Below are positions 1,386 through 64,000 of a stretch of 64,000 nucleotides of DNA, piece by piece. The translations under genes and the position numbers were made by a program. Every line of letters starts with the position of its first letter. The first letter of the stretch is position 1. The notes beneath the pieces were generated by a model. It was not told the DNA's origin. It did no database searches and worked only from the letters and a program-made list of their open reading frames with translations. Source of the stretch: Cytophagales bacterium (GTDB taxonomy: Bacteria; Bacteroidota; Bacteroidia; Cytophagales; VRUD01); assembly GCA_019456305.1 (NCBI GenBank), contig VRUD01000011.1, positions 1 through 64,000 on the forward strand, read 5' to 3'.

Positions 1386-1524
1386 TTGAGTCCACTCTAA
1401 AAAATCCAAGAAATAAAAATGCCACTAAATCCTACAAAACCCTGAAAATAAATTAGTTAATTTTTAGTGGGATTTAGTGTTTTTGTGCTTTTGTGGCAAA
1501 AAAGACTTTTTAGAGTGGACTCAA
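1386..1524. repeat. Palindromic element P1, copy 1 (MITE-like)
   Basis: The element begins TTGAGTCCACTCTAAAAA and ends with the inverse TTTTTAGAGTGGACTCAA. Inside is a second inverted pair built on CACTAAATCC and GGGATTTAGTG. A second copy lies at 9060-9212. This copy lacks 16 bp that the other has between two direct CACTAAATC words, as expected for slippage or recombination between short repeats. It sits between nadD and the M43 protease and could fold into a strong hairpin and end nadD transcription. No transposase is encoded. Confidence 0.8.
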
Positions 1525-6034: not shown

Positions 6035-6260
6035 GATGCCAATATACGAATATTAGGTACTGCTTCTTAGTATATACTAATTTATAATGCTAATATACTA
6101 ATTGATACTAATTATACGAATATTTTTACTCTGCTTCTTAATATAGATTTCATTATTAGTATCATTAGTCCCGAGTACTCGGGATTAGCATTTTTTTATT
6201 CGTATATTTGCATTAAATTAGTATTTCACCCTACGGATGATTACCCTTTGGGGAACATTC
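6035..6260. repeat. ATACTAAT/ATACGAAT array with a CCCGAGTACTCGGG palindrome
   Basis: Degenerate words ATACGAAT, ATACTAAT and GCTAATAT run in both orientations. At 6168-6181 is the palindrome CCCGAGTACTCGGG. The same words form the element nested upstream of rplJ (63557-63741). Two TATATTTG sequences, which match the -7 promoter consensus, occur at the distal end. Confidence 0.7.
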
Positions 6261-9059: not shown

Positions 9060-9212
9060 TGAGTCCACTCTAAAAAGTCCAAAAAATAAAAATGCCACTA
9101 AATCACCAAAGCACTAAATCCCACAAAACCCTGAAAATCAATTAGTTAATTTTTAGTGGGATTTAGTGTTTTTGTGCTTTTGTGGCAAAAAAGACTTTTT
9201 AGAGTGGACTCA
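9060..9212. repeat. Palindromic element P1, copy 2
   Basis: The longer copy of the element at 1386-1524 has the same ends (TGAGTCCACTCTAAAAA and its inverse) and the same nested inverted pair. It also has an extra 16 bp containing a second CACTAAATC. It fills the space between the convergent aminopeptidase and SiaC genes and could terminate both. A degenerate relative of its right half is at 62828-62876. Confidence 0.8.
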
Positions 9213-31952: not shown

Positions 31953-32187
31953 GTATCGGAATTTCAATGTTTAAATGAAATTTATATTTCAATCTATTCT
32001 TTATGCTCTTAATGAACAGCTACTGGGCACTGGTTACTGGGTTCTAGGTTATTTGCTTTCGGTAGGCAGGTTGGTAATTCTTTCTGACATTATTCACTAC
32101 CATCACCCAGTACCCAGTACCCAGTAACTAACTTATTATTTTTACTTCACTTAATTTTAGCTAATTTCATTTTAATTAACTTACTTT
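31953..32187. repeat. CCCAGTAC element, complete copy (A)
   Basis: It begins TATCGGAATTTCAATG and has a left arm (CTACTGGGCACTGGTTACTG, 32030-32049), a 56-bp core from 32050 (TTATTTGCTTTCGGTAGG...), a right arm (ACCCAGTACCCAGTACCC) and an end in AATTAACTTACTTT. The copy at 63543-63964 has the same parts and an identical core. It separates rpsM from rpsK. On the minus strand the core gives an 18-codon frame (MVVNNVRKNYQPAYRKQIT) of unknown meaning. Confidence 0.85.
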
Positions 32188-32196
32188 ATTATGTTC

Positions 32197-32580
32197 TTAT
32201 CTCCTTTCCGGAGCACTTTTCTTGCCTGTTACTGTTTTTCGTTTTCCTTTTCTGGTGCGGCAATTATTTTTTGTTTTTTGTCCTCTTACAGGCAACCCTT
32301 TCCTATGCCGGATCCCTCTGTAACTGCCTATATCCATTAATCTCTTTATGTTCAACTGCACTTCTGAACGCAACGATCCTTCGAGTTTATATTCTGCCCT
32401 AATGATCTGTCTAACAGCGCTGGCTTCTTCATCATTCCAGTCTTTGATTTTTTTATTATAATCTACCCCAGCTTGATTAAGTATTTTCAGGGCTGTAGAA
32501 CGACCTATTCCATAAATATAGGTGAGCCCTATCTCTCCACGCTTATTATCAGGTACATCTACTCCCGAAATTCTTGCCAT
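32197..32580 (-). CDS. rpsM: 30S ribosomal protein S13
   Basis: S13 contacts the 50S and the P-site t[31 protein letters not shown] is the family start, and [19 protein letters not shown] with the basic C-terminal tail ([13 protein letters not shown]) completes it. 127 residues, normal. It follows rpmJ and precedes element A and rpsK. Confidence 0.96.
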
Positions 32581-35429: not shown

Positions 35430-35451
35430 AAATCAGGCGCTTATAATAATA

Positions 35452-35735
35452 AGTTGACAATTGACAATAGGCAGTAGACAATAGACAGTAGACAATAGAC
35501 AGTAGACAATGGACAATAAGACAATAGATTAATTGTTTTTTTTACGTGTATATTTTTCAGGATAATTTATCATATGATTTAACATTTTACCAATCTCGTG
35601 TTCTTTTTCAAACCAATCATTTTTAGTTTTTTCAGAAATATATTTACATAATATTCTATTATAACTTGATTGCAATTGTCTTGTTTATTGTCTATTTGTC
35701 TTTTGTCTATTGTCTACTGTCAACTTTTTTGGATT
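35452..35735. repeat. TTGACA array unit with inverted arms around a four-helix-bundle fragment
   Basis: The left arm (35452-35526) repeats TTGACAATAGACAGTAGAC words. The right arm (about 35674-35735) holds the inverse TTGTCTATTGTCTACTGTC. Between them lies the C-terminal coding piece of a four-helix-bundle gene (35529-35672). The unit fills the rplO-secY spacer, and its right end overlaps the last codons of rplO. Confidence 0.75.
35529..35672 (-). pseudogene. C-terminal fragment of a four-helix-bundle (S23/bAvd-like) gene
   Basis: On the minus strand the open frame reads QSSYNRILCKYISEKTKNDW and then FEKEHEIGKMLNHMINYPEKY before a TAA at 35529. This matches the end of Bacteroidota four-helix-bundle proteins (EIGKxLNxMIxNPEKF). 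The N-terminal two thirds are missing and no start codon fits. It lies between inverted arms of a TTGACA array. The complementary N-terminal piece of a similar gene is at 17638. Confidence 0.6.
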
Positions 35736-36187: not shown

Positions 36188-36367
36188 CTAATTCCCTTCA
36201 ACTTTAATTAAATGGGCAACTTTATTTATCATGCCCGCAATTTGTGGTGTATTCTCAACTTCTACACTTTTGTTGATTTTCCCCAAACCTAATGCTTGAA
36301 TGGTTCTTTTTTGCCTTTCGGTCCTGCCAATAATGCTTCTTATTTGAGTAATTTTTACTTTTGACAT
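36188..36367 (-). CDS. rpmD: 50S ribosomal protein L30
   Basis: A 59-residue frame, MSKVKITQIRSIIGRTERQK, RTIQALGLGKINKSVEVEN, ending HLIKVEGN. The pattern TxxRSxIGRxxxxRxTxxALGL is diagnostic for L30. It lies 12 bp before rplO and 164 bp after rpsE, in the standard spc order. Confidence 0.95.
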   Translation of the reverse strand: MSKVKITQIRSIIGRTERQKRTIQALGLGKINKSVEVENTPQIAGMINKVAHLIKVEGN

Positions 36368-36369
36368 CT

Positions 36370-36528
36370 TATAAAGTACGAAATACGAATGACGAAGTAC
36401 GAATTACGAAGTACGAATGACGAATTACGAAATACGAAACTCGAAATACGAAACTCGAAATACGAAACTCGAAATCCGAAAATCGAAATCCGAATTACGA
36501 AGTACGAATTTCGTCATTCGTAATTTCT
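36370..36528. repeat. TACGAA(T/G) array, one long and one short arm
   Basis: The words TACGAATGACGAAGTACGAAT, ACTCGAAATACGAA and ATCCGAAAATCGAA run for about 135 bp; a short inverse arm (TTTCGTCATTCGTAATTTC) lies next to rpsE. It fills the rpsE-rpmD spacer. The family also forms the arms at 29788-29864. Confidence 0.75.
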
Positions 36529-36531
36529 TAT

Positions 36532-38529: not shown

Positions 38530-38571
38530 AGTATCGGAATTTCAATGTTTAAATGAAATTTGTATTCAAAT
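38530..38571 (-). repeat. Shared leader sequence before rpsH
   Basis: On the plus strand GTATCGGAATTTCAATGTTT, AAATGAAATTTGTATTCAAATC. The same 30-40 bp stands before rpsK (from 31953), rpsS (from 42888, diverged) and rplJ (from 63543, cut short), each 7-14 bp before the start codon. Confidence 0.65.
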
Positions 38572-38592
38572 CATAAATCACTAAATGAATGT

Positions 38593-40257: not shown

Positions 40258-40394
40258 TATTTAGTTTCTGGTTTTGAGTTTTTAGTTATAGTTATTTGGT
40301 TTTTGGTTTTAGTTTTTAGTTTACCAGTTAACTGAATAACTAAAACTAACAACAATTCAACTATAACTTTTAACTAACAAACCAATAACTGTTT
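40258..40394. repeat. Inverted pair of AGTTTTTAG/TTGGTTTT arrays between rpsQ and rplN
   Basis: Left: TTTAGTTTCTGGTTTTGAG and TTATAGTTATTTGGTTTTTG. Right: AATAACTAAAACTAACAAC and AACTAACAAACCAATAACTG. The arms meet without a long core. Same family as at 5747 and 15794. Confidence 0.75.
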
Positions 40395-42578: not shown

Positions 42579-42875
42579 TTACTTCTTTCTTCCCTCTTTT
42601 CTTACACCCTTATCCTTTTTTGCAGAATGAGCCTTAAAATTTCTGGTAGGTGCAAATTCACCTAGCTTATGACCAACCATATTTTCGGTCACATATATCG
42701 GAATAAATTTATTACCATTATGAATGGCAAACGTATGTCCAACAAAATCAGGTGAGATCATTGATCTCCGTGACCACGTTTTGATCACAGATTTTTTACC
42801 CGACTCTTCTATTTTTTGTATTTTTTTAAGAAGTCTGTAATCAATATAAGGTCCTTTCTTTAAAGAGCGTGCCAT
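42579..42875 (-). CDS. rpsS: 30S ribosomal protein S19
   Basis: [20 protein letters not shown], then [20 protein letters not shown] and [20 protein letters not shown]. 98 residues with a basic tail. It lies after rplB. The 112-bp spacer to rplV shows no gene. Confidence 0.96.
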
Positions 42876-42887
42876 TTTAATTTAACG

Positions 42888-42982
42888 TATTGGAATTACA
42901 ATGTTTTAAATAAACTGATATTTAAATCTATCCTTTGTACTCTTAATGAACAGTTACTGGGCTCTGGTTACTGGGTTCTGGT
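42888..42982. repeat. CCCAGTAC element, left half only, before rpsS
   Basis: The shared leader in diverged form (TATTGGAATTACAATG), the linking stretch (AAATCTATCCTTTGTACTC) and one arm (TTACTGGGCTCTGGTTACTG). The core and right arm of the complete copies are absent. It fills the rplB-rpsS spacer. Confidence 0.7.
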
Positions 42983-43804
42983 TTATTTTCTTTTCTTAAT
43001 TATAAGCCTGTTGGAATATTTTTTCTTATTCCTGGTTTTAAACCCTTTGGCATATAAACCCGTTCGTGAACGCGGGTGACCGCCAGAGGCTTTACCTTCA
43101 CCCCCACCCATAGGATGGTCAACAGGGTTCATAGCAACTCCCCTGGTACGGGGTCTTCTGCCTAACCATCTGTTTCTCCCTGCTTTTCCCAGGGTAATAT
43201 TCATGTGGTCAGCGTTTGATGCCGACCCAATAGTAGCAAAGCAAGTTATTAAAACCATCCTCATTTCTCCGGAGGGTAGCTTAATAGTTGCATATTTCCC
43301 CTCTCTCGCTAATAATTGTGCATAACTGCCAGCACTCCTGGCTAATGCAGCACCTTTACCAGGTTTTAATTCAATATTGTGAATAATTGTACCTAAAGGT
43401 ATTTCAGACATAGGCAAAGCATTACCCAAATCGGGTGCAATGCCTTTGCCAGACACCACAGTTTGTCCGGTTTTTAATCCCTCCGGAGCAATTATATATC
43501 TTTTTTCACCATCAATATAGTTTAATAATGCTATTCTGGCCGATCTGTTCGGATCATATTCAATAGTATTTACAACAGCTGGAATATCAAATTTATTTCT
43601 TTTAAAATCAATGATCCGGTATCTCCTTTTATGTCCTCCGCCACGGTTTCGTACTGTCATTTTACCGGTATTGTTTCTACCACCACTACTTTTGATAGGA
43701 GCCAACAGAGACTTTTCAGGAATTACAGAGGTGATCGTATCAAATTGCGGTGCAATCCTGAATCTCTGTCCTGGTGTAACCGGTCTTAATTTCTTTGCAG
43801 CCAT
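42983..43804 (-). CDS. rplB: 50S ribosomal protein L2
   Basis: L2 is needed for subunit joining and peptidyl transfer. [29 protein letters not shown]-like [18 protein letters not shown], and the C-terminal [20 protein letters not shown] with its conserved histidine. 273 residues. It lies in the S10 operon between rplW and rpsS. Confidence 0.97.
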
Positions 43805-43839
43805 AACTCGTGCTTAGTTGCATAAATAAAGGTTACATG

Positions 43840-43975
43840 ACTGTCCCTTTTTTATACCTAATAGTTTTACTTAGCATGATTGCATGGTTGCATGGATGCA
43901 TGCATGCATCCATGCAATCATGCAGCCATGCAGTCAATAAAACAGTTAGGTATAAACAAACGGATACTCATTATG
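43840..43975. repeat. GCATGATTGCATGG array forming a long hairpin
   Basis: TGCATGGTTGCATGGATGCA and its inverse run through a central GCATGCATGC. Outer stems (TATACCTAATAG with AGTTAGGTATA) extend the structure. It fills the rplW-rplB spacer. Confidence 0.75.
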
Positions 43976-43995
43976 TTAATTTATGCAATTAAGGA

Positions 43996-46577: not shown

Positions 46578-46590
46578 AATTTATTAGTAA

Positions 46591-46710
46591 TTAGTCATTG
46601 TCATTGTCATTGCCCCCCCTATTCATCGGATGACTCCAACGCACGATCTATCCAGTCATCAGATGATAGCCAACGCTTGTCATAGTCATTGTCATTGTCA
46701 TTGTCTATTG
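46591..46710. repeat. TCATTG arrays in direct orientation with a tandem core
   Basis: TCATTGTCATTGTCATTG occurs on both sides in the same direction. The core has two related words: ATCGGATGACTCCAACG and ATCAGATGATAGCCAACG. It lies in the fusA-rpsJ spacer and overlaps the last codons of fusA (VTQ). Confidence 0.65.
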
Positions 46711-46711
46711 C

Positions 46712-59387: not shown

Positions 59388-59783
59388 TTAATTCCTCCCT
59401 GCTTTTGTAACTAATCTGGCAATCATTTCTACGCTTTTCTGTAGTTTTAGATTTCCTTCAATCATACTTTCATGCATATTTTCAATGCCTTTCTGTAGTT
59501 TTAGATTTCCTTCAATCATACTTTTATGCATATTTTCAATGCCTTTCTGTAGTTTTAGATTTCCTTCAATCATACTTTCATGCATATTTTCAATGCCTTT
59601 TAGCAGCGTTGCAAAGCCCTTTTGCTGACCTTCTTCTATTTTTTCAAGCAGCGCTTCCTGCCGTACAAGCACCTTGCTGTTTTGCTTTCGTACATCCCAT
59701 ATAAACCATGAAATGGTAACTATTCCCGCAACAACAGTCATAAAACCTGCGACCATAGTGACGTAAGTAATTGTGTTTTCCAT
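59388..59783 (-). CDS. Membrane-anchored protein with 18-residue coiled-coil repeats
   Basis: 131 residues: one N-terminal span ([20 protein letters not shown]) and a helical region with three near-identical repeats of [18 protein letters not shown] (one has Lys for Glu). It lies between an inserted secreted fragment and rplL and has its own promoter match. It does not match a family I know; the form recalls small coiled-coil anchor proteins. Confidence 0.7.
59436..59597. repeat. Three tandem 54-bp repeats
   Basis: Units begin at 59436, 59490 and 59544 (TTTCTGTAGTTTTAGATTTC) and are almost identical at the DNA level. They encode the 18-residue coiled-coil repeats. The unit is a multiple of three, so copy number can change without a frameshift. 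Confidence 0.85.
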
Positions 59784-60178: not shown

Positions 60179-62693
60179 CTATATTCTTACCCCAATCACC
60201 AGGATGTCATCAATCTGCCTGCTTTCACCTTTCCATTCCTCAATGGTATTTTCTAATTTTTGCCGCTGCTTGTCCATTGGTAAGTCGTGAATATCCAAAA
60301 GGAGACGTTTGAATCTTTCGGTCATAAACTTTGTATTATCAGGTCCACCAAATTGGTCTGAATATCCATCGGAGAAAAGATAAATGGTGTCGCTTTTTTT
60401 TACGCTATATTCATGTTGAGTAAATTTTTTGATTGTTTTTTTTCTACTTCCTCCAATTCCCAGAACATTGCCTTTTATTTCATTTAAGGTTCCATTTGAA
60501 GCGACATATAATGGCCGTTTGGCGCCAGCAAAAGTGAGGCTGCGTTTTTCAGGATCAATTGAAATAAGCGATAAATCCATGCCATCATTTGCAACGTAAT
60601 CTCCTCTACCTGCCTGCGAAGCTCCCCTAAGTCCCCCTGAATCGGTGAATGGGTGAATGGGTGAATCGCTTCGTTTTCCAGCTCTCCGTTTCTCCGATTC
60701 CCCGTTTCTCCGATTCAAGTTGGCTTGGAGTTTGATGCAAGGCTTGCTTAATCCCTTTATTTAATTGATCAAGAATATCGGAAGGTTTTGTTACACCTTT
60801 TTCATTGATAATCTCATTTAAAAGGGTATTACCGATCATAGACATGAAGGCACCCGGCACCCCATGACCGGTGCAATCTACTGCCGCTAAAAGGATCTTA
60901 TTATTCTTTTTGCTGAACCAATAAAAATCACCGCTAACAATATCTCTGGGTTTGAATAATATGAATGAATCAGGCAGCAATTTACTAATAAATTCATCTG
61001 ACGGCAAGATAGATTGCTGAATCCGGCTGGCATAATTGATACTATCGGTTATTTGTTTATTTCTCTTTTCCAATTTTTGGTTGGAATCTTCCAATTGTTC
61101 TTTTTGTACATTAATTTCTTCGTTCTGCTGTGATATAAACTGATTTTGTTCTTCCAAAAGTGCGTTGGCTTTTTGCTTGATGCGGTAGCGGTTGTATAAA
61201 AGTGAGGCCAGGGCCAAAGCCAAGGCTAAGCCAGCAATAAATGAGTTTCTCAGCAGCTTTTGCTTGCTCACCGCTAAGTCTTTTATCTCATTTTCTTTTT
61301 TAAGAAGTTCTATCTCTTTTACTTTTTTTTCAGTCTCGTATTTGGTTTGCATTTCGGCTATTTGCTTGCTGCTTTGTTCGTTGAATAGGGTGTCTTTGAG
61401 AGAAGCATAAAAGCGAAGGCATTCAGCGGCCTTTTTATAATTATTAGATTTTGAATAGGCGTCCGCTAAATTTTTGTAACCGTCTGCTATTATCTTTATA
61501 GCGCCTATTTCTTTAGCAATTGCCAGCCCCTTTGTTTGGTATTCGATAGCTTGCCGATAGTCATTTTGTTTTGAAAAGATGATGCTGATATTGTTGAGCG
61601 TTTCAGCTGTTCCAAGTTTATCTTTCAGTTCTTTGTGAATTTCCAGCGATTTGAAATAATACGTCAATGCTTTTGAATTGTTCTCCTGGGCGTGATACAG
61701 GCTGCCAATGTTATTATATAAACTAGCTATTCCCTTTTTATCGCCAATTTCTTCTCTTATCTCCAATGATTTTTTGTAATAGTTGAGTGCAGTTGAATAA
61801 TCTTTTTGTTCATTGTAGATTATGGCAATTGCTTCAAAAGAAATTCCCATTCCACGCTTGTCATCTATCAATTTCCTTGTTTCAAGCGCTTGTTCATAAA
61901 ATTCCAACGCTTTTGTATAATTTTTTTGATAGTAAAAAATATTACCGAGGTTGCTTAGAACATTTCCCTTGGGATGCAGGTTATTGGTTTTATCAACTAT
62001 TTTCAAGGCAACAAAATAATGTTCCAATGCTTGTGAATACTGGCCTTTATGAACATAAATGTTACCTATGTTTTGATAAACGCTTGCAATTCCTCCCTCA
62101 TTATTCAGCTCCTTTGTTATCTCAAGTGATCTTTGGTAACTTTTTAACGCTTCATCATAAATGCCATGGTCAGTTAAAATTGCCCCCATAAAATTGTAGG
62201 AATTGGCCATTCCTTCTTTATCGTTAATCTCTTCCCTTAGTTCAAGCGATTTGTTCAGATAATCCAGCGCCTTTTCGTAATTTCCTTGATAGTAATGAAT
62301 CAGGCCTATATTGTGATACGAATCAGATATTCCCTTTTTATCTCTTTCTTGCTCTCGTATTTCAAGGGCATCGTGATATTTTTCAAGCGCAGCCGGATAA
62401 TCGCCCTGATAAAGGGATATGTTTCCCTGATTGTTAATGGCTTGCGCTCTGCCTTTTTCAAATCCTGCTTTTTTGGCTAATTGTTCAGCTTCAATCGCAT
62501 ATTTCAATGCCTCATCGTAGTTGTAGGCGCTAAAGGACTGGAAAAGCTGGTTCAAGATATTGACCTTTGTTGTATCTTCTTCTGCAGTTTTCAGTAGGTT
62601 TTCTAAAGAATCAATCTCTGCTTGTTGAGCAGAAGCGCTGACAAACAGCAGTGTGCCTGTAGCAAAAAGAAGGATGGCGGTAAGTTTTTTCAT
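60179..62693 (-). pseudogene. TPR sensor with SpoIIE (PP2C) phosphatase, frame broken by a repeat insertion
   Basis: Signal peptide (MKKLTAILLFATGTLLFVSA), about ten TPR units with YYQGNYEKALDYLNKSLE-like sequence (residues about 50-430), one membrane span (about 480-500), a coiled coil and the first half of a PP2C domain (DCTGHGVPGAFMSM). The frame from 62693 ends at 60627; the second half of the PP2C domain (NDGMDLSLISIDPE, FSDGYSDQFGG, DDILVIGVRI) continues in another frame to 60179. The two frames overlap in a low-complexity insertion (60638-60722). It has the same phosphatase output as the gene at 9677. ATG 62693 is chosen for the signal peptide. Confidence 0.85.
60638..60722. repeat. 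GAATCGG/GGTGAATG array inserted in the PP2C gene
   Basis: Contains three 8-bp units GGTGAATG/C (about 60643-60667) and two copies of CCGTTTCTCCGATTCC (16 bp; about 60685-60717). It is absent from the PP2C family consensus at this point, and both frames are open across it. Confidence 0.75.
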
Positions 62694-63011
62694 ACACGAA
62701 AGATTAAAAATTAGAAAAAGCATGCGAAAATTTACAAAAAGCAATTGGTCTGGGCTATACCGGAATGTATGGCAATGACGTGGAAGAGTTACTGAGAAAA
62801 AATTGCGAATGAAACCAGTGTCATGGTTCACCACGAAAATTAGCAAAATTTAGTGTTTTTGAGCTTTGGTGGTAAAGAAGCTGACAGTCATTTAAAATAA
62901 ATTGACAGGTTCAATATCAGAAACTAATAGTCAGGATAGAAAGGAGCTAATTTATTTTTTTATAATAAGTTTACCTTTTAGCAACACGCTTGCATTTGAA
63001 TTTTTTAAGCA
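62694..63011. other. Spacer between rplJ and the SpoIIE gene; degenerate P1 half-copy
   Basis: 62828-62876 has TTTAGTGTTTTTGAGCTTTG and GGTGGTAAAGAAG, close to the right half of element P1 (TTTAGTGTTTTTGTGCTTTT), with CACCAC at its left end able to pair with GGTGG. I see no gene and no clear promoter here. Confidence 0.45.
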
Positions 63012-63533
63012 TCACCGCTGCCCCAACACTTTCACCACGCCAGCTAATTTATGCTCAGCACTTTTCAAAGCAGCAATCACAATTTTAGCAGGTGATTGCA
63101 GTGCTGAAATGATCTCACCAATAAGTTCATTTTTAGATTTGAGCTTGCTTAATGCGTCTAAATGCTGGTCGCCAATATAGATCTCAGAATCAACAAATGC
63201 GCCTTTTAATTCCGGTTTATCAAATCCTGCCTTTCTAAAATCTTTGATCAGTTTTGCAGGAGCATTCCCTGCATTTTTTGCAAATAATACTCCTGAAAAG
63301 CCCTTTAAAATATCACTAAACTCAGAATAGTCAGTCTCGGATGAATCAAAGGCTTTCTTTATAAAAGTATTCTTATATACCTTGTATTCAACCTTATTCT
63401 CATAGCAAAGTTTTCGAAAATCATTGATCTGAGCTACGGTAAGCCCCGAAGCATCTGCTATATAGAAAAAATTAGAGGCCTTAAACTTTTGACTTAATTC
63501 TTCAATAATTGTTGCTTTTTCTTCTCTTGTCAT
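63012..63533 (-). CDS. rplJ: 50S ribosomal protein L10
   Basis: L10 anchors the L7/L12 stalk. MTREEKATIIEELSQKFKAS, FYIADASGLTVAQINDFRKL and AGNAPAKLIKDFRKAGFDKP identify it. The C-terminal helix that binds L7/L12 (ALQSPAKIVIAALKSAEHKL) is present. 173 residues. rplL, normally the next gene, is 3.6 kb away. It is preceded by the shared leader and nested arrays. Confidence 0.96.
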   Translation of the reverse strand: MTREEKATIIEELSQKFKASNFFYIADASGLTVAQINDFRKLCYENKVEYKVYKNTFIKKAFDSSETDYSEFSDILKGFSGVLFAKNAGNAPAKLIKDFRKAGFDKPELKGAFVDSEIYIGDQHLDALSKLKSKNELIGEIISALQSPAKIVIAALKSAEHKLAGVVKVLGQR

Positions 63534-63542
63534 GACTTGTTG

Positions 63543-63964
63543 TATCGGAATTTCAATTGATACGAATAAGGTATAATGCTAATATACGAATTTATACTAA
63601 TGATACGAATAAAAGACACACCTGTTTGCCAAAGCACTTCGGTGCGCAGGCACATTACAAGTATTTGCATTAATCTCTTCAAGGCCTCAGCGATGGGCAT
63701 TAGTATCATTAGTATATTAGCATTTTATTATTAGTATTTTGTAATTTATATTCAAATCTATTATTTGTGCTATTAATAAACAGCTACTAGGCTCTGGTTA
63801 CTGGGTTCTGGGTTATTTGCTTTCGGTAGGCAGGTTGGTAATTCTTTCTGACATTATTCACTACCATCACCCAGTACCCAGTGCCCAGTACCCAGTAACT
63901 AACTTATTATTTTTACTTTATCCCGAGTACTCGAGTCTAATTTTATTTTTAATTAACTTACTTT
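63543..63964. repeat. CCCAGTAC element, second copy (B), carrying a nested array
   Basis: Starts with the same leader (TATCGGAATTTCAAT), is interrupted by an ATACGAAT array (63557-63741), then continues (AATTTATATTCAAATCTATT) with left arm, identical 56-bp core, right arm and the same end (AATTAACTTACTTT). A TCCCGAGTACTCGAG palindrome replaces sequence near the end. It occupies the space upstream of rplJ; 63965-64000 shows nothing further. Confidence 0.8.
63557..63741. repeat. ATACGAAT/ATACTAAT array nested in CCCAGTAC element B
   Basis: Left arm TGATACGAATAAGG and ATACGAATTTATACTAATG; right arm ATTAGTATCATTAGTATATT; core of about 80 bp with a GCACTTCGGTGC hairpin. The sister element at 31953 has about 10 bp here instead. 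Confidence 0.75.
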
Positions 63965-64000
63965 GCCCCGCACATAAATTTGTACAACATTTAATGATTT

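Follow-up and report, generated by a model that had tools for sequence, protein, structure and literature searches.

The rplJ Locus

In the 64,000-nucleotide stretch of DNA analyzed here (the window), the gap between rplA and rplJ is filled by short repeat elements set one inside another. Gene order around the locus is kept (tuf, secE, nusG, rplK, rplA, rplJ), and the best named matches to the L1 protein are from Bacteroidota, mostly Cytophagales, at about 70% identity. The nested inserts together lengthen the gap to 490 bp, whereas at 78 named Bacteroidota loci (one miscalled start left out) the median is 2 bp and the longest gap 46 bp.

Eight nucleotides before the start codon of rplJ (63012-63533, minus strand) is the left end of a short frame, GTATCGGAATTTCAAT (63542-63557, plus strand), followed in order by a 185-bp ATACGAAT array, AATTTATATTCAAATCTATT, and the arms of a CCCAGTAC element. 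The ATACGAAT inverted-array element (63558-63742) lies in the loop of a leader hairpin, AATTTCA..TGAAATT, where, by comparison with empty copies, it replaces GTTTAAATGA, 10 bp making up most of the loop; no target duplication was found at its borders. By comparison with isolated copies, its left border is the terminus typical of the family, TGATAC[TG]AATAA, and its right border is close to the mirror terminus, ..TTATTAGTAT. Nested in its core is a 30-bp palindrome, CCTGTTTGCC..GGTGCGCAGG (63621-63650), with CACA duplicated on either side (63617-63620 and 63651-63654); empty cores without this palindrome, AAAAGACACATTACAAG, are found at L096, L097, and L102. The remainder of the CCCAGTAC element (rest of the leader, left arm, core, right arm, and tail; 63743-63945) has its arms at about 63784-63812 and 63870-63898, and in its tail a decayed CCCGAGTACTCGGG palindrome (63922-63935) which is common to the sister copies and therefore older. 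The right frame end, TTTTTAATTAACTTACTTTG (63946-63965, plus strand), is interrupted at CTTTG by a 45-bp palindrome, CCCCGCACATAAAT..ATTTATGTGCGGGG, running from 63966 across the window edge at 64000 to contig position 64010: it splits ..ACTTTGTTATG.. with a 5-bp CTTTG target duplication, and the frame end picks up again beyond the window as CTTTGTTATGTTCTTA.

Folding of the sense-strand RNA is strong (z about -5.8), but any inverted array must fold, so this is no evidence of function. Nothing in the window matched an Rfam model at gathering scores, and a reading of the locus as a known RNA element was dropped.

There are other peculiarities nearby. A TPR and SpoIIE-phosphatase gene (60179-62846, minus strand) lies between rplJ and rplL, and is broken into two reading frames near 60690, beside a 16-bp duplication (60686-60716). 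Directly upstream of rplL is a 131-aa reading frame (59388-59783, minus strand) with no Pfam match, made of 54-bp tandem repeats (59436-59600, 98% alike). Other gaps in the ribosomal cluster (35430-35719, 36331-36531, 40258-40394, 43805-43995, and 46578-46711) hold differing inverted or tandem short-unit arrays, with units including GACAATA, TACGAAA, TTTAGTT, GCATGCATGCATCC, and TTGTCA.

Empty Sites and Related Copies

An earlier note on this sequence had paired the element before rplJ with one in the rpsM-rpsK gap, proposing that only the former carries a 185-bp ATACGAAT array and that one array family had thus entered a copy of another. Sequence matches confirm that the two are genuine homologues. 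The rpsM/rpsK copy (31953-32199, plus strand) fills its gap, its terminal TTA being the rpsM stop codon on the minus strand, and lacks the array, which in the rplJ copy measures exactly the 185 bp claimed. The core is identical as described, although the exact common stretch is 72 bp (32047-32118 and 63811-63882) rather than 56; the true right end of the rplJ copy is outside the window (at about 1026 in L023). The alternative that the leaders are alike by chance is refuted: the two leader halves flanking the array, GTATCGGAATTTCAAT and AATTTATATTCAAATCTATT, are joined in many copies with only the 10-bp loop between them, and near-identical copies lack the array. The results support the earlier reading as right but incomplete: nested inserts here number at least three, including the 30-bp and 45-bp palindromes that it missed, and a smaller frame carries the CCCAGTAC array itself as cargo.

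Two other uninterrupted copies, at C11:66517-66764 (upstream of secE) and C20:3568-3815, serve as empty sites better than the one at rpsM/rpsK. Beyond the insert, each matches the rplJ copy at 99% identity, and filled and empty copies differ by no more than about two other mismatches over 225 bp. Elsewhere in the window there are a truncated CCCAGTAC element consisting of the left frame and left arm (42887-42993, plus strand), upstream of the gene at 42579-42875; an armless, leader-only copy (38531-38572, plus strand) 8 nt from the rpsH start codon; and a further ATACGAAT array (6067-6260, outer limit approximate) with a nested CCCGAGTACTCGGG palindrome at 6170-6183.

Copying of the CCCAGTAC element to distant sites, also proposed in the earlier note, is borne out by at least 45 matches in the genome, as compared with at least 115 for the ATACGAAT element; these are lower bounds, like the other family counts given here, and not element counts, as one match may represent a single arm. 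Matches at this level indicate that the two families are independent and abundant. The CCCGAGTACTCGGG palindrome has at least 196 copies (reversed control, 0). The arrays include head-to-tail CCCAGTA units whose copies differ in length by 7 bp, making them heptamer tandem arrays of the STRR-like kind. In some ATACGAAT arms, one 12-bp unit between CTAAT repeats is replaced by one of several differing CCCG..CGGG palindromes (L108, L112, L114, L122, and window position 6170), in either arm; this replacement has apparently happened at least three times independently.

The repeat family looks lineage-specific, within the limits of exact-pattern searches. The right frame end was found in none of 291 other genomes of the order, the exact core pattern in none of the GTDB contigs (from which the organism's own genome may have been left out), and the ATACGAAT pattern in none of the viral contigs. 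A search of 38 relatives, all of the same order, yielded one weak 33-bp match, and none of the relatives returned was a same-family genome with an orthologous empty site.

A Shared Frame with Different Cargo

The frame runs from a left end, GTATCGGAATTTCA.., to a right end, ..TTTTTAATCAACTTACGAAGTTATGTTCTTA, between the stop and start codons of neighboring genes. The genome has at least 55 left ends (17 bp, allowing 2 mismatches; reversed control, 1) and at least 38 right ends (24 bp, allowing 3 mismatches; control, 0), but about 13 of the 38 right ends are part of another element, one whose terminal repeats are TTAGTGTCTGTCTATAA. Thirteen left ends have neither a recognized array nor a right end, and may be relics. 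At least six array families are carried. The CCCAGTAC array is the commonest cargo, and its place may be taken by CACGAATTACACG, GCCACTAA, CGCAAAGACGC, ACACAGAG, or ACCATA arrays, or by GC-rich palindromes alone; a minimal frame at L153 contains only CCCGAGTACTCGGG. AATTTCA flanks the CCCAGTAC cargo left and right, suggesting an old 7-bp duplication, but this is a single, inherited event; the frame itself has no obvious target duplication. Miniature elements with the 17-bp TTAGTGTCTGTCTATAA terminal repeats are found at L031:807-975, L155:2435-2620, and L158:1977-2169 (at least 49 ends in the genome), and those at L155 and L158 hold a right frame end and GGCAGTCGGCAGT arms.

Evidence on Mobility

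Some of the repeats here give good support for transposition with a staggered cut, though the ATACGAAT step does not. The best case is the GAGTCCACTC family, with 17-bp terminal inverted repeats, a length of 135-156 bp, no coding capacity, and at least about 157 ends genome-wide, a description that fits MITEs. Exact 6-bp duplications flank six of seven copies, and staggered-cut transposition is well supported for this family. Two members are in the window (1388-1522, with an AACATT target duplication, and 9061-9211, with ATTACT), and others are nested in frames at L139 and L159. The CCCCGCACATAAA palindromes have CTTTG and CAAA duplications at unique targets. The ATACGAAT step is without a clean-transposition signature: instead of the target-site duplication expected of a MITE, there is a 10-bp replacement. 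Among the ends listed for the GAGTCCACTC and TTAGTGTCTGTC families, in what is a fragmented assembly, no two lie a transposon's length apart as would mark an autonomous partner, and no transposase gene was linked to the CCCAGTAC, ATACGAAT, or frame families.

Possible Explanations

We consider it reasonably likely (a probability of about 0.65) that what fills the locus is a stack of miniature palindromic repeat elements that encode no protein, one inserted in another, with a shared frame. The nesting, its borders, the filled and empty sites, the copying, and the target duplications of several small palindromes are all directly shown. The sequence of events would have been as follows: a CCCAGTAC inverted array inside the frame, having probably entered at AATTTCA; copying of the loaded frame to many sites; at rplJ, entry of the ATACGAAT array into the leader hairpin loop; and insertion of the 30-bp palindrome within that array and of the 45-bp palindrome into the right end. 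A transposase acting in trans and making a staggered cut would move at least the duplication-bearing families, while at the ATACGAAT step the array would have been inserted imprecisely or have arisen by template switching at the hairpin. The arrays would be mostly parasitic, tolerated in operon gaps, with hairpins presumably transcribed in the rplJ leader. Several observations are against this explanation. No transposase gene is linked to the CCCAGTAC, ATACGAAT, or frame families, the frame has no obvious target duplication, and the ATACGAAT insertion comes with a 10-bp deletion and no duplication. Element orientation is more regular than a randomly oriented pure parasite would predict: in 43 of the 49 cases that could be scored (p 6e-8 for a coin flip; genes are simple open-reading-frame calls), the left end faces the start codon of the neighboring gene, frequently about 8 nt away. 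Repeats could, in addition, be concealed or scrambled in a draft assembly of 159 contigs.

The 10-bp replacement without a duplication at the ATACGAAT step favors an unlikely alternative, that the arrays were never transposed, but were built and spread by replication slippage, template switching at hairpins, and gene conversion between repeats, the rplJ insert being one template-switch event that replaced the loop. Array copy number does change by 7-bp units, and the CCCG..CGGG palindromes substitute for, rather than add to, a 12-bp unit in several ATACGAAT arms, as well as for loop bases in leaders. Exact 4-6 bp duplications in several nested families are harder to accommodate, as are discrete element borders recurring at many unlinked sites. 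That the ATACGAAT array and the CCCG..CGGG palindromes take the place of loop bases is compatible with template switching at hairpins, and probably both this process and transposition are at work. If the ATACGAAT step was instead carried out by one of the genome's Y1 (HUH) transposases, moving palindromes as single strands in a REP/RAYT-type system, the lack of a duplication would be expected. There are seven Y1_Tnp genes in the genome, and the palindromes do sit in intergenic gaps, but we consider this doubtful: the Y1 loci examined were not flanked by CCCAGTAC or ATACGAAT elements, most carrying other palindromes (CGCTCCTAACGGAGCG, AGCCCTGAAAGGGC), and HUH enzymes do not make duplications like those of several nested families. 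Y1/RAYT was accordingly set aside as the mobilizer.

The orientation bias might mean that the frame is functional and under selection, as a 5′ leader or a promoter module, and became dispersed as a regulatory cassette in which the arrays are passengers or regulatory binding sites; this too seems rather unlikely. The bias extends to leader-only copies, and on the sense strand of many leaders TAGATTTG matches the Bacteroidota -7 consensus, TAnnTTTG. The match is broken in several copies, the rpsM/rpsK copy among them, so that the promoter reading was retained as a rival only; short gaps, moreover, by themselves place element ends close to starts and stops. In Geobacter, paired heptamer/octamer arrays have been interpreted as regulator sites (PMC2700814). 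A more novel, and unlikely, reading would have the frame serve as a dedicated platform on which palindromic array cassettes land in operon gaps and by which they are transported. It would be a protein-free, hairpin-based cassette system: different arrays would be loaded at a single joint (AATTTCA), swapped, and taken to other gaps, always oriented toward the downstream start codon. Finally, the genome is a draft in 159 contigs, and repeats longer than 70 bp within the element might invite a short-read misjoin producing the nested copy as an artifact; this is very improbable given conserved gene order on either side, three separate sharp-bordered inserts of which two have duplications, and comparable nesting at many loci.

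Because both filled and empty copies survive, at several nesting levels, one genome allows a direct reading of how and in what order tiny non-coding repeats were inserted; these include heptamer arrays, whose spread has had no evident mechanism. The genome also shows that essential ribosomal operons can accommodate structured repeats amounting to hundreds of bases between genes of the same orientation.

Comparison with Known Systems

The small dispersed repeats of cyanobacteria, very small mobile repeated elements described by Elhai and colleagues in 2008, reportedly also nest in other repeats and in heptamer tandem repeats. They are like the present elements in being short, protein-free, dispersed, and intergenic; here, however, the host is an uncultured member of the Bacteroidota, whole inverted arrays of 100-200 bp are nested, and a shared frame carries different arrays. 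The GAGTCCACTC family resembles MITEs in its terminal inverted repeats, uniform size of about 150 bp, and 6-bp duplications, whereas the CCCAGTAC and ATACGAAT elements have inverted arms but, at most sites, no duplications that are proven to be theirs, and no autonomous partner is known for them.

Nesting of palindromes within palindromes is established for Anabaena variabilis, in which GTAG repeats (REP dimers) are found within long palindromes that have a consensus (Di Nocera et al., 2013; PMC3733652). The present inserts differ in being heptamer-like arrays, several with target duplications, and in having neither a GTAG/CGTC tag nor a demonstrated RAYT association. Heptamer arrays adjoining start codons also have precedents: TAACTGA direct repeats are intergenic and directly upstream of start codons, including those of ribosomal operons (MacGregor, 2015; PMC4679880), and Geobacter metallireducens has paired heptamer/octamer arrays, with opposed pairs (PMC2700814). 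Those arrays are not known to have a common frame or documented filled and empty sites. Palindrome nesting and heptamer arrays near starts are already known (PMC3733652, PMC4679880, PMC2700814); the unusual part, not encountered as a combination in the literature searched, is a shared frame with interchangeable inverted-array cargo, together with filled and empty sites at multiple levels in one genome.
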